Assembly (NCBI GenBank): GCA_025463515.1
Contig: JAODAQ010000068.1
Coordinates: forward strand, 1 to 57,973
Direction: 5' to 3'
Source of the DNA: Rhodoglobus sp.
GTDB taxonomy: Bacteria > Actinomycetota > Actinomycetes > Actinomycetales > Microbacteriaceae
DNA length: 57,973 nucleotides
Positions 1-48,291 of this stretch are shown piece by piece; the stretch's first letter is position 1, and every line of letters begins with the position of its first letter. Under the pieces are notes generated by a model, which saw only the letters and a list, made by a program, of their open reading frames with translations, was not told where the DNA came from and ran no database searches. Position numbers and translations under genes: made by a program.

Positions 1-933
<933 letters not shown>

Positions 934-2040
934 CTACTCAACCAGCGTGAGCGCAGAGACTGTCCGTGCGACCGTGCACTGGCCGAGCACCCGCGTGCCC
1001 ACGTACAGCACCGCGGTCTGGCCGGGGGCGAGGCCCGTGATCGGCTCGATGGGGGTGATCACGAGCTCGCCGTCGCGGACGACCGCCGTCGCTGGCACCG
1101 GGTCGGCGTGGGCGCGCACCTGCACCTCGCAGTCGAACGGCGCTGCAGGATCGAGCGGCGGGATGCCCGCCCAGGTGAACTTCGTACCGGCGAGCTCGCC
1201 GATCGCCAGCGCCTCCCGCGGCCCCACCACCACCTCGTTGGTCTTCGGCCTGATCTCGAGCACGAACCGGGGCTTGCCGTCGTCCGTCGGGTAGCCGACA
1301 TTGAGGCCCTTGCGCTGCCCGATCGTGAACGCGAGAGCGCCCTCGTGCTGGCCGATCACGCTGCCGTCCCGATCCAGGATGTCGCCCTGCTCGGCGCCGA
1401 CCTTGTCCGCGAGCCAGCCGCGGGTGTCGCCGTCGGGGATGAAGCAGATGTCGTGCGAGTCGGGCTTGTTCGCGACACTGAAGCCGCGAGCTGCGGCCTC
1501 CGCGCGCACCTCGGCCTTGGAGGGCGTGGCGCCCAGCGGGAACATGGCGTGCGCGAGCTGCTCGGCGGTCAGCACGCCCAGGACGTAGCTCTGGTCCTTC
1601 GCCCACGCAGCAGCACGGTGCAGTTCGCGGTTGCCGTCGGCATCGGTCTCGATCGAGGCGTAGTGGCCGGTCACGACGGCGTCGAAGCCGAGGGCGAGGG
1701 CCTTCTCGAGCAGCGCCGCGAACTTGATGCGCTCGTTGCACCGCATGCACGGGTTGGGAGTGCGGCCGGCCGCGTACTCGGCGATGAAGTCGTCCACCAC
1801 GTCGAGTCGGAATCGCTCGGAGAAGTCCCAGACGTAGTACGGGATGCCGATGATATTGGCGGCGCGCTGGGCATCCATCGAGTCTTCGATAGTGCAGCAC
1901 CCGCGGGCACCGGTGCGCAGCGTGCCGGGCGTGCGGCTGAGGGCGAGGTGCACGCCGACGACCTGGTGGCCGGCGTCGACGGCGCGCGCGGCAGCGACAG
2001 CGGAGTCGACACCCCCGCTCATCGCCGCCAGAACCTTCAC
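934..2040 (-). CDS. mnmA: tRNA-specific 2-thiouridylase MnmA
   Basis: A 368-residue protein that thiolates U34 of tRNA(Lys/Glu/Gln) using sulfur relayed from a cysteine desulfurase. The PP-loop SGGVDS is at residues 8-13, the catalytic Cys is in NPCMRC (Cys98), and the second catalytic Cys is in HDICF (Cys199); length is normal. The GTG start has TAAACT 7 nt upstream, so a leaderless promoter of its own seems likely even though the sugar permease stop codon is only 19 bp upstream. Its expected partner, an IscS-type desulfurase, is 5.6 kb away at 7618-8793, with a sugar transporter between them. Confidence 0.97.
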
Positions 2041-7506: not shown

Positions 7507-7638
7507 GGGTTGAGTAGGCCGCCCGCGGCCGTATCGAAACCTTGGGTCACAGTGGGCGAGGTTTCGATACAGGCGCCTAGAGCGCCTTACTCAACCCACC
7601 GGGTTTCGATACAGGCACTAGAGCGCCTTACTCAACCC
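7507..7638. repeat. Cluster of three palindromic intergenic repeats (copies 1-3)
   Basis: Copy 1 (7507-7541) reads left to right from GGGTTGAGTAG to GTATCGAAACC. Copies 2 (7560-7597) and 3 (7601-7638) are the same element inverted. Each has invariant ends around a stem with variable but self-complementary arms: GGCCGC-CC-GCGGCC in copy 1 and GGCGC-CTAGA-GCGCC in copy 2; copy 3 has one mismatch. Copy 1 is identical, reverse complemented, to copies 7 and 8 near 48.2 kb. Copy 3 contains the stop codon of the cysteine desulfurase. No gene is seen in 7449-7617. Confidence 0.93.
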
Positions 7639-8793
7639 ACCGAGGGTCGGCGAGCGGTCGGCGAGGCCCGCGGAGCGCGCGCGGTCGACGGCGACGGGGA
7701 GGGCGGCGACGAAGGCGTCGACCTCGGCAGCAGTCGTCTCGTGGCCGAGGGTGATGCGCAGGGCGCCGCGGGCGTCGGGCTCGCTGAGCCCCATGGCGAG
7801 CAGGACGTGGGATGCCTCGGGCACGCCGGCCTGGCAGGCGGAGCCCGTGGAGACGCTGAAGCCCGCGGCATCCAGCAGGAACAGCAGCGAGTCGCCCTCG
7901 CAGCCCGGGAACGTGAAGTGCGCGTTGTTCGGGAGGCGGTCGACGGGGTCGCCGCGCAGCACCGCGGTCGGCACCGTCGCCTGCACTCCCGCGATCAGCC
8001 GGTCGCGGAGGGCCGTGCCGTCGAGGAGGGGCAGGGCGGCCGCAACACCGAACGCGACCGCGCCCGCCGAGTCCTGCGTGCCAGACCGGGCGCGCTGCTG
8101 GTTGCCGCCGTGGATGAGCGGGGTGACGGTCGCCGAGCGGGAGATGACGAGCGCGCCGATCCCGACCGGTCCGCCGATCTTGTGGGCGGAGACGCTGAGC
8201 GCCGCGAGCCCGGTCGAGTGGAAGTCGATCGGAAGATGGCCGTACGCGGAGACCGCGTCGCAGTGCACGGGCACGCCGTGGACTGCCGCCAGCGCCACGA
8301 TCTCCGCGACGGGCTGGATCGTGCCGACCTCGTTGTTCGCCCAGAGGACCGTCACGAGCGCGACATCGTCGGCGAGCGCGGCCTCGAGGTACCCGAGGTC
8401 GATGCGGCCGAGGGCGTCGACCGGGATCCAGTCGACCACGGCGCCCTCGTGCTGCTCGAGCCACTCGACGGCGTCGATCGTGGCGTGGTGCTCGGCGCGC
8501 GCGACGAGGATGCGGGTGCGGGGCGCGCGACTCCAGTACAGCCCCTTGATCGCGAGGTTGACCGCCTCAGTCCCGCCCGACGTGAACGTCACCTCGACCG
8601 CATCGGCGCCGACCGAGGAGGCCACCGCCTCACGGGCCTCCTCGAGCATCCGTCTCGCCTGCTGCCCCTGCGAGTGGATCGACGACGGATTGCCCACGAC
8701 GCCGAGCGCGGAGATGTACGCCGCGAGCACTTCTGGCCGCAGCGGCGTGGTCGCCGCGTGGTCGAGGTAGATGCCCGTGCGCTGTGCCTCCAT
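7618..8793 (-). CDS. iscS: Cysteine desulfurase (IscS/NifS family)
   Basis: A 391-residue PLP enzyme that releases sulfur from cysteine for tRNA thiolation and Fe-S assembly. Visible are YLDHAATTP at the N-terminus, the PLP contact FTSGGTEAVNLAI, HCDAVSAYG, the PLP lysine in SVSAHKIGG, and the catalytic Cys in STGSACQAG. It is the expected sulfur donor for MnmA. The last seven codons and the TAG come from a dispersed palindromic repeat (copy 3), so the native C-terminus may have been altered. The ATG at 8793 was chosen at the conserved N-terminus; there is no obvious ribosome binding site. Confidence 0.93.
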   Translation of the reverse strand: MEAQRTGIYLDHAATTPLRPEVLAAYISALGVVGNPSSIHSQGQQARRMLEEAREAVASSVGADAVEVTFTSGGTEAVNLAIKGLYWSRAPRTRILVARAEHHATIDAVEWLEQHEGAVVDWIPVDALGRIDLGYLEAALADDVALVTVLWANNEVGTIQPVAEIVALAAVHGVPVHCDAVSAYGHLPIDFHSTGLAALSVSAHKIGGPVGIGALVISRSATVTPLIHGGNQQRARSGTQDSAGAVAFGVAAALPLLDGTALRDRLIAGVQATVPTAVLRGDPVDRLPNNAHFTFPGCEGDSLLFLLDAAGFSVSTGSACQAGVPEASHVLLAMGLSEPDARGALRITLGHETTAAEVDAFVAALPVAVDRARSAGLADRSPTLGGLSKAL

Positions 8794-13195: not shown

Positions 13196-13285
13196 GGGTT
13201 GAGTAGGGCGCTCTGGCGCCCGTATCGAAACCCAGAAGTCGCCCCGACCGGTGTCGATACGGCCCCTGGAGGGCCTACTCAACCC
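13196..13285. repeat. Pair of palindromic intergenic repeats (copies 4-5)
   Basis: Copy 4 (13196-13233) runs GGGTTGAGTAG to CGTATCGAAACCC with a perfect inner stem GGGCGC-TCTG-GCGCCC. Copy 5 (13250-13285) is inverted, with inner stem GGCCC-CTGGA-GGGCC and one change in its conserved end (GGTGTCGATAC). The pair ends 10 bp before the glgP stop codon. Confidence 0.92.
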
Positions 13286-46773: not shown

Positions 46774-47409
46774 ATGAACGACCTCACCGACTTCGTGCCG
46801 GCCACCGTCCGCACGGAGCCGGTCCAGCAGCGCTCGACCGAGCGCATTACGAGCCTCCTCGACGCCGCCGCCGACCTGATCGACCAGAACGGCATCGACG
46901 GCCTCACCACGAGCGACGTAGCGACGCGCTCCGGCTCGTCGGTGGGCGTGGTGTACCGCTACTTCCCGAACATCCAGTCGCTCCTGCGCGCCCTCGCCTC
47001 GCGCAATATGGAGAAGTTCACCACCCGGCTCTTCGGCGCGATGTCGGAGCAGCCGGAGGGCTGGATGGCCGCGATGAACGCCGCGATCGACGGCTATGTC
47101 GAGCTGCTGCGCAACGAGCCCGGCTTCCGCGCCCTCGGGTTCGGCGACGTGATCGACAAGCGCTTCATCCAGCCGGACCAGTCCAACAACTCGGTCCTGG
47201 CGAAGCAGTTCGGCGAGCTGTTCACCCGCAAGTACGGGCTCGTGCCCTCGGCAGACCTCTCCCTCGACCTCGAGATCATCATCGAGATCGCAGATGCCCT
47301 GCTGCACCGCGCCTTCCTCTACGAGCGCCAGGGCGACGAGCGCTTCATCGAGAAGCTCCGCACCATCGTCTTCGAGTACATGAGCAAGCACGAGGAGCTC
47401 CCCGCGTGA
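46774..47409 (+). CDS. TetR-family transcriptional regulator
   Basis: A 211-residue regulator with the N-terminal HTH (RITSLLDAAADLIDQNGIDGL, TTSDVATRSGSSVGVVYRYFPNIQSLLRAL) and a C-terminal ligand-binding domain typical of TetR_C. The ATG at 46774 was chosen on the conserved HTH spacing. Its stop overlaps the GTG of the methionine aminopeptidase gene (GTGA), so the two form an operon inserted in opposite orientation between rplS and trmD. Confidence 0.92.
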   Translation: MNDLTDFVPATVRTEPVQQRSTERITSLLDAAADLIDQNGIDGLTTSDVATRSGSSVGVVYRYFPNIQSLLRALASRNMEKFTTRLFGAMSEQPEGWMAAMNAAIDGYVELLRNEPGFRALGFGDVIDKRFIQPDQSNNSVLAKQFGELFTRKYGLVPSADLSLDLEIIIEIADALLHRAFLYERQGDERFIEKLRTIVFEYMSKHEELPA

Positions 47410-48179
47410 TCGAACTGCGGACCCCCGCCGAGATCGACCGGATGCACGCTGCCGGCACGTTCGTCGCGGGCGTGCTCGAGGCCACCGCCGCGGCATCCGT
47501 CGTCGGCACCAACATGCTCGACATCGACCGACTCGCCCACGACCTGATCCGCAAGGCCGGCGCTGAGAGCTGCTACATCGACTACCACCCGTCCTTCGGC
47601 GCATCGCCGTTCGGGAAGGTGCTGTGCACCTCCGTCAACGACGCCGCGCTGCACGGCCTGCCGCACGACTACCGGCTGCGCGACGGCGATCTGCTGACCC
47701 TCGACTTCGCGGCCTCCGTCAACGGCTGGGTCGCCGACTCCGCGATCAGCTTCGTGGTGGGGACTCCTCGCGAGGAGGACCTGCGACTCATCGAGACGAC
47801 CTCGCGCGCGCTCGACGCCGGCATCGCCGCCGCGGTAGTGGGCAACCGCATCGGCGACATCTCCGCCGCGATCGGGGACGTCGCGCACGACGCGGGCTAC
47901 AGCGTCAACACCGACTTCGGCGGCCACGGCGTGGGCCGCACCATGCACGGGGACCCGCACATCCCCAACGACGGCCGGCCCGGGCGCGGTCTGCCCCTGC
48001 GCGCAGGGCTGGTGTTCGCCATCGAGCCCTGGTTCATGATCGGCACCGACCGCATCTACACCGACAAGGACGGCTGGACCCTCCGCAGCGCCGACGGCTC
48101 GCGCGCGGCGCACTTCGAGCACACGGTCGCAGTGACGGAGGACGGGCCGCTCGTGCTCAGCGCTCGCAGCGGTCGCTGA
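47406..48179 (+). CDS. map: Methionine aminopeptidase, type I
   Basis: A 257-residue enzyme removing N-terminal Met. Metal ligands lie in DGDLLTLDFAASVNGWVADSAIS (two Asp), GGHGVGRTMHGDPHIPN (His), FAIEPWFM (Glu) and EHTVAVTEDG (Glu). It is likely a second, non-housekeeping map, as the essential one is normally beside adk/secY. Coupled to an upstream TetR gene by a 4-bp overlap. Its stop codon TGA is shared with the first bases of palindromic repeat copy 6. Confidence 0.93.
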   Translation: MIELRTPAEIDRMHAAGTFVAGVLEATAAASVVGTNMLDIDRLAHDLIRKAGAESCYIDYHPSFGASPFGKVLCTSVNDAALHGLPHDYRLRDGDLLTLDFAASVNGWVADSAISFVVGTPREEDLRLIETTSRALDAGIAAAVVGNRIGDISAAIGDVAHDAGYSVNTDFGGHGVGRTMHGDPHIPNDGRPGRGLPLRAGLVFAIEPWFMIGTDRIYTDKDGWTLRSADGSRAAHFEHTVAVTEDGPLVLSARSGR

Positions 48180-48291
48180 TTGAGTAGCGCGCCCTAGCGC
48201 GCGTATCGAAATCCCGGTTTCGATACGGCCGCGGGCGGCCTACTCAACCCGCACCCGGTTTCGATACGGCCGCGGGCGGCCTACTCAACCC
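48178..48291. repeat. Cluster of three palindromic intergenic repeats (copies 6-8)
   Basis: Copy 6 (48178-48214) runs forward with inner stem GCGCGC-CCTA-GCGCGC. Copies 7 (48216-48250) and 8 (48257-48291) are identical to each other and inverted, with stem GGCCGC-GG-GCGGCC-type arms, and equal the reverse complement of copy 1 at 7507. The cluster exactly fills the space between the convergent map and trmD genes. Confidence 0.93.

Follow-up and report, generated by a model that had tools for sequence, protein, structure and literature searches.

REPs are common repeats in bacterial genomes. The stretch of Rhodoglobus sp. DNA analysed here, 57,973 nucleotides long and referred to as the window, carries a family of short palindromic repeats, which raises the question of what these elements are and which enzyme could have spread them. 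The original prediction listed eight copies, all of which are found with starts at most 1 bp off, and a shortened copy is present in addition:

917..943, − strand: shortened 27-bp copy, excluded from the cluster counts
7508..7541, + strand: REP copy, 34-bp type A, left half of a head-to-head cluster, exact arms
7560..7596, − strand: REP copy, 37 bp (long type B), arm GGTTGAGTAA, one arm mismatch
7602..7637, − strand: REP copy, 36-bp type B, arm GGTTGAGTAA
13197..13232, + strand: REP copy, 36-bp type B, left half of a head-to-head dimer, exact arms
13250..13284, − strand: REP copy, 35 bp (type A), right half of the dimer with 13197..13232, one arm mismatch
48178..48213, + strand: REP copy, 36-bp type B, A-T arm pair (GATTGAG..CGAAATC), two arm mismatches
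48216..48249, − strand: REP copy, 34-bp type A, same sequence as 7508-7541, exact arms
48257..48290, − strand: REP copy, 34-bp type A, same sequence as 48216..48249, exact arms

The assertion that all eight share their ends was too strong, as the exact GGTTGAGTAG and TATCGAAACC are found in four of them and the other four have one or two changes, while the three copies described as identical over 35 bp (7508, 48216 and 48257) are indeed identical, over 34 bp. The copy at 48257..48290 is probably a tandem duplicate of its neighbour 48216..48249. The stop codon of the predicted gene 7618-8793 (−) lies inside the copy 7602..7637, and that of the predicted gene 47406-48179 (+) extends into the copy 48178..48213. 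The shortened copy at 917-943 (−), in which part of the stem and the 3′ arm are missing, lies between two predicted genes whose ends are at 876 and 934. An Rfam search of the window returned no match at the gathering score. For a 673-residue protein encoded in the window, the twelve best plasmid matches listed are to Arthrobacter, Nonomuraea, Streptomyces and Tsukamurella at 46-59% identity, in keeping with an actinobacterial source.

Anatomy and placement of the repeats

Across the 3.32-Mb genome (G000), the exact-arm pattern matches 107 forward and 88 reverse copies, that is, at least 195, and chance is excluded since the reversed pattern gives no match in the whole genome and none in a reversed 437-kb sample. 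This sample, 13% of the genome, consists of the window and 20 stretches picked around listed copies, and contains 86 copies in 47 clusters after two of 88 matches, one truncated and one implausible, were dropped. Identical copies account for 23 of the 86, which bears out the proposed recent spread of the repeat, and the suggested REP/BIME-like organisation in head-to-head clusters between genes is likewise upheld. Copies do not always come in groups, as had been claimed, 18 of the 47 clusters being single copies, but the forward-then-inverted order stands: all 29 mixed clusters of the sample open with a + copy and close with a − copy, which turns the GTAG side outward at both ends. At the +/− junction a form A copy (at most 35 bp) lies opposite a form B copy (at least 36 bp) in 27 of the 29 clusters, compared with a mean of 14.8 in shuffles, of which one in 100,000 was as high. 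The basic unit in G000 is a head-to-head pair of unlike hairpins, A of about 34 bp and B of about 36 bp, in which the outer arms are conserved and the stems vary freely. Same-direction neighbours form ten pairs, each within one length class and with a spacing of 4-7 bp, as local tandem duplication would give. The outer end extends at least 3 bases past GGTTGAG, all 58 outer flanks having a G at −3, and the tag beside the stem is GAGTAG (or GAGGAG) in the listed exact-arm copies of both G000 and the family genomes; loci in other genomes show other arms besides this type, and the opposite neighbour order (−/+) is present in the relatives G021 and G022.

All 47 clusters of the sample lie between genes, where a home-made gene finder predicts 92.3% of the DNA to be coding, and this check of coding against intergenic placement favoured the earlier view of the repeats as intergenic. 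Convergent gene pairs hold 22 of 46 clusters compared with 75 of 440 adjacent pairs overall, and divergent pairs 3 of 46 compared with 78 of 440. Gene 3′ ends are found at most 200 bp from a cluster edge in 65 cases; the stop codon is inside the repeat in 27 of these (20 at GGTTGA and 5 at GAGTAG), 28 further 3′ ends lie within 20 bp of the cluster, and none of 26 gene 5′ ends is inside a repeat. Many copies therefore appear to be placed at the last codons of a gene and to provide its stop. At the 29 head-to-head clusters no consistent target-site duplication is seen by eye, and a scan over lengths 2-9 and many offsets gave a best z of 3.05 with no formal correction. In the congener G019, which has neither the repeats nor the nuclease gene described below, 21 bp separate the matches on the two sides of cluster 48178-48290, compared with 143 bp in the window, which reads as a gain between two convergent genes, or alternatively a loss in G019; at the other two window clusters the intergenic stretches are too diverged from G019 for a boundary reading.

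The pairing of the arms was assessed on 163 distinct hairpins from related genomes, defined by fixed anchors and an inner stem of at least 4 bp with four arm pairs left free. The four pairs are Watson-Crick in 89-98% of cases (rates of 0.975, 0.951, 0.951 and 0.890), whereas the shuffled means are 62-83% and none of 500 shuffles, which ignore relatedness, reaches the observed value; the stem covariation first noticed in the window thus holds in the enlarged set. The pairing is imperfect, stem position 2 of the 36-bp form being frequently mispaired. When four actinobacterial forms are folded as DNA, two adopt an outer stem in which two bases bulge out on the 3′ side. The 36-bp form has, at minimum energy, the inner stem alone; one further form folds otherwise, and the CGTC form discussed below folds as a plain hairpin. 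T/G and A/C changes are coupled between the two arms, a coupling that two alternative pairings could account for.

Compensatory change in the stems is therefore real, but selection on the hairpin is not its necessary meaning, as had been stated, because arm-to-arm copying would give a similar pattern. Template switching in imperfect palindromes copies one arm from the other, and correction of this kind could keep the stems complementary with no selection on the folded form, in agreement with stems that change freely beside nearly constant arms and that are often common to tandem neighbours. Yet the outer arm pairs also covary between lineages, whereas the intervening letters are constant and unpaired, and plain arm-to-arm correction should also have removed those unpaired mismatches, which leaves template switching a conceivable but rather unlikely source of the covariation.

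The nuclease gene enclosed by the repeats

Bertels and Rainey reportedly linked REP/REPIN elements with RAYT transposases in 2011, and a RAYT was the partner that the original prediction proposed to look for. The RAYT domain PF01797, for which matches were found in E. coli as a positive control, is absent from G000, from 24 congeners and from all 54 repeat-bearing genomes among 249 family genomes; the sole match among 40 relatives is in another family, and the two family genomes that do encode it (locus L020 in G270 and L021 in G050) have no repeats by the pattern used, which matches 54 of the 249 genomes and, when reversed, matched once among the 249. A RAYT partner was consequently rejected. 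The GTAG before the stem, the head-to-head dimers and the covarying stems do resemble GTAG REPs as described in PMC3733652, as would be expected of a classical system moved by a RAYT (Y1 transposase) whose gene was missed or lost, but independent loss in all 54 repeat-bearing genomes is implausible and such a system can be given hardly any credence.

In relatives, repeat arrays facing each other across about 350 bp enclose a GIY-YIG domain protein of about 95 residues (PF01541; four proteins match at E 2e-19 to 2e-16) that is related to UPF0213; its matches in NCBIfam all fall under the cut-off of that collection. In the genome of the window this gene is present once (C69:106357-106635) and is flanked by repeats on each side, and relatives carry up to three each. 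The view that the repeats are not tied to a function is thus superseded, as they are tied to a GIY-YIG nuclease gene. Within the genus, the 6 of 27 genomes that have the gene are precisely those that have the repeats (chance 1 in 296,010), with 208 repeats in G000, 132 in G006, 6 in G007, 88 in G014, 47 in G021 and 89 in G022, and the other 21 genomes have neither. In the family, a profile built from the four proteins finds the gene in 60 of 249 genomes at 80 places; the 249 are a draw from a larger group, taken as common to the three family searches from its identical size and handles. Both gene and repeats are present in 31 genomes, repeats only in 23, the gene only in 29 and neither in 166 (p=1.3e-9), and 14 of the 18 genomes with at least 20 copies have the gene. 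By the profile search, 23 of the 54 repeat-bearing genomes are without the gene, including 4 of those 18, and in 17 of the 29 gene-only genomes the gene is enclosed by inverted repeats missed by the exact pattern, most of which have arms of another type. The genomes G051, G076, G264 and G278, each with at least 20 repeats and no GIY-YIG gene detected, might hold orphan populations, have lost the gene or, for G051 (82% complete), have it in missing sequence.

The flanks were compared at 87 loci, namely all 80 family places and 7 more from the genus. An inverted repeat extends across the gene within 400 bp at 52 of the 87 loci, compared with 1 of 130 control windows (p=2e-25), a contrast favoured by the mostly coding nature of the controls, and at 35 of the 87 no inverted flank reaches the threshold. 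Both sides carry the general arm pattern at 47 of the 87 loci compared with 1 of 130 of the same control windows (p=3e-22), a count that is low because the patterns miss other arms, and the nearest flanking copies are + then − at 31 of these 47. With a slightly different pattern 48 loci are two-sided, the median distances being 66 bp from the upstream repeat to the start and 10 bp from the stop to the downstream repeat. The control windows (130 for the family and 142 for the alpha-type set below) were taken from the same loci, non-fitting ones being dropped; by a stricter control, in the G000 sample only, 29 of 43,733 random 290-bp windows and 2 of 414 predicted genes are flanked. In a phylum-wide draw the gene is present in 38 of 396 genomes, and among its 27 new loci 4 are flanked, L260 and L261 alone with this arm type, and 23 are not. 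Some actinobacterial GIY-YIG genes (L217, L218, L221, L222, L233 and others) are flanked by a CCTGAGCCTGTCGAAGG-type repeat, which, judged by the common TGAG..TCGA core, may belong to the same superfamily as the window repeats.

The type of repeat follows the nuclease. On a tree of the 87 proteins, which is built from few columns and has many weak forks, the arm classes need 20 changes compared with 42.3 when shuffled, and none of 200 shuffles, which keep relatedness in, is as low. Paralogous nucleases in one genome carry different repeat types, as seen in the four genomes compared of 15 with several genes. One genus has RTCGAGTGC..TGTATCGAGAY beside genes of G165, G217 and G265, GTTGAGTAG..GTGTCGAAAC beside a supported pair of genes (G217, G265) and GTCGAGGAG..CGTCTCGAGAC beside a supported trio (G165, G217, G265); the tree does not separate the RTCGAGTGC set from the GTTGAGTAG pair, and two loci of that set also hold GTTGAGTAG-type copies. 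G075, from another genus, has three genes with three repeat types. The recurring paralogue pairings are limited to the one genus of G165, G217 and G265 and could have arisen through inheritance of whole loci, a point that counts slightly against the nuclease as the cognate enzyme.

Between 82 and 86 of the 87 proteins keep the GIY-YIG motif residues Y, YxG, R, H and E, which we take to be the catalytic ones. The predicted structure of a protein from the alpha branch described below (36 sequences, pLDDT 95.4, pTM 0.87) is nearest in the PDB to the UPF0213 protein 1zg2 (E 2e-4), followed by Slx1 on branched DNA and the UPF0213 protein 1ywl (E 0.013). Such a modelled fold would suit a nuclease that reads DNA structure, as offered by a hairpin with fixed unpaired letters.

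CGTC REPs and a second nuclease branch

A 2013 survey (PMC3733652) states that CGTC REPs "apparently lack a dedicated transposase" and suggests that their transposases are extinct or shared; there, CGTC elements are described as mainly head-to-head dimers, A. lipoferum is counted among the CGTC species and the neisserial dRS3 is equated with CGTC-1 repeats. A related branch of the GIY-YIG family appears to partner these CGTC-tagged REPs, mostly in Alphaproteobacteria. Among ten loci of this second branch, retrieved with a query from Sinorhizobium, inverted CGTC-type REPs enclose six (Azospirillum, Neorhizobium, two Shinella, Sphingobium and Novosphingobium), one flank bears a CGTC- or CCTC-tagged copy in Photobacterium and Rhizobium K1/93, and both flanks bear unlike hairpins in Spirosoma and repeats of another kind in Planktothrix. 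A tblastn search of plasmids gave nine homologues, with matching repeats on both sides in four (two Methylobacterium, one Sphingomonas and one Sinorhizobium) and none in five.

An alpha-type set was made up of the best 80 of 574 relatives in named genomes, from which 75 were used and five with short flanks dropped. In this set (best 80 of 574), an inverted repeat extends across the gene at 43 of 75 loci compared with 2 of 142 mostly coding control windows, and 32 of 75 have no inverted flank at the threshold. CGTC- or TGTC-tagged hairpins are present on both sides at 31 of the 75 loci, again from the best 80 of 574, compared with 2 of the 142 controls, and the nearest copies are + then − at 14 of these 31; the window repeats differ from CGTC REPs in tag and arms, their copies beginning with GGTTGAGTAG or a near variant. 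Within the same best 80 of 574, flanked loci number 20 of 27 in Hyphomicrobiales, 4 of 7 in Sphingomonadales, 4 of 4 in Caulobacterales and 1 of 4 in Rhodobacterales, and 0 of 5 in Betaproteobacteria. With a loose CGTC pattern, each of 33 gene-bearing genomes (33 of the 80 loci) gives more matches than with the reversed pattern, a result made unreliable by many non-hairpin matches. In Azospirillum lipoferum 4B, sufB and sufC are separated by a REP-nuclease-REP cassette of about 490-530 bp, which is absent from A. oryzae, A. ramasamyi and strain B510, by gain or loss.

Several homologues occur in other settings. Two Methylobacterium GIY-YIG genes (L087 and L088) lie between a longer inverted repeat of the CCTCATCCTGAGG type with no GTAG or CGTC tag visible, and on a Planktothrix agardhii plasmid (L115) the gene has TGTCATTCTGAG repeats on both sides and is located between an MmeI-like gene and the DISARM gene drmA. 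Neisseria records (plasmid-collection matches H47 and H49) encode an alpha-type homologue, and phage homologues of the nuclease are found in 19 records. The nuclease shares family and fold with UPF0213 (PDB 1zg2 and 1ywl), from which it differs in that some members have no flanking repeats: L090 lies between rnc and era and L095 between methyltransferase genes, and both are perhaps domesticated.

A GIY-YIG nuclease as the probable partner of the repeats

The repeats are probably REP/REPIN-like elements whose cognate enzyme is a single-domain UPF0213-type GIY-YIG nuclease instead of a RAYT, and which likely spread by nicking of the hairpins and copying of the unit. That the nuclease and the repeats are specific partners is very likely; that the nuclease drives the spread is likely. 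The nuclease gene, commonly placed between copies of its own repeat type, would encode a putative enzyme that recognises the fold adopted by the arms when the DNA is single-stranded or cruciform, and nicks the folded repeat; host repair or replication would then copy the unit into new sites, and new copies would be kept mostly at gene 3′ ends, without target duplication. Binding, cutting and spread through cutting would all be activities of this putative nuclease. GIY-YIG nucleases are not known to join strands, so other enzymes must carry out the insertion, and the superfamily is not known to move such DNA. Against the proposal also count the repeat-bearing genomes in which no gene was found, the nuclease loci with no inverted flank, the flank orientations other than + then −, and the distant UPF0213 genes, most of which have no flanking repeats.

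This absence of strand transfer from known GIY-YIG chemistry would suit a nuclease gene that is only a passenger, the repeats being spread by some transposase or by replication errors and the REP-flanked cassettes shuffled by recombination. The 23 repeat-bearing family genomes in which no gene was found also fit a passenger, as does the restriction of the recurring paralogue pairings to one genus, but the exact concordance in 6 of 27 genomes of the genus, the different repeat types beside paralogues of one genome and the flanking in two enzyme branches with different repeats all speak against it; we regard it as improbable. Alternatively, the nuclease could belong to the host or have been domesticated, and serve to cut or resolve REP cruciforms in genome maintenance or at transcript ends, with repeats that are kept for this service and rarely move. 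Its fold is near that of the branched-DNA nuclease Slx1, the clusters prefer convergent gene pairs and UPF0213 genes without flanks occur among housekeeping genes, all in keeping with a host role; against it stand the patchiness within a single genus, from 0 to 208 copies, the many identical copies and the sufB-sufC cassette found in one Azospirillum and absent from three others, and a service of this kind seems still less probable than a passenger gene.

The proposed nuclease-driven system can be set beside several known ones. Slx1 is not known to be tied to repeats. It shares the GIY-YIG fold, and differs in that it acts together with Slx4 according to PMC8287910. MITEs are likewise small and non-coding with inverted ends, whereas the window repeats have no clear target-site duplication in the 29 head-to-head clusters. 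The closest likeness is to the REP/REPIN-RAYT system: short intergenic hairpins with a GTAG-type tag beside the stem, head-to-head dimers, an enzyme gene between inverted copies, co-variation of enzyme and repeat, and enzyme presence that tracks the repeats. The enzyme in that system is an IS200/IS605-like Y1 transposase, whereas here it is a GIY-YIG nuclease with no PF01797, and the repeats have longer conserved arms that include unpaired letters and two unlike hairpins per dimer. RAYT genes are flanked by inverted REPs, co-evolve with them and correlate with REP abundance, as described in Nunvar 2010 (PMC2817692), and here these three features are seen with an unrelated enzyme. No earlier report of a GIY-YIG/REP partnership was found in the open-access literature, most subscription papers and all bioRxiv preprints being outside this scope.

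On balance, we favour the view that GIY-YIG nucleases, in place of transposases, drive a minimal class of mobile bacterial DNA, spreading by hairpin nicking and host repair in at least Actinobacteria and Proteobacteria and including the CGTC REPs. For the latter, the nuclease is a specific and testable candidate to fill the enzyme gap pointed out in PMC3733652. If true, two unrelated enzymes have converged on the same element architecture, and many annotations as "GIY-YIG nuclease family protein" would gain a likely meaning. An enzyme not suspected as a partner before would then offer a possible explanation for the spread of one class of bacterial repeats.
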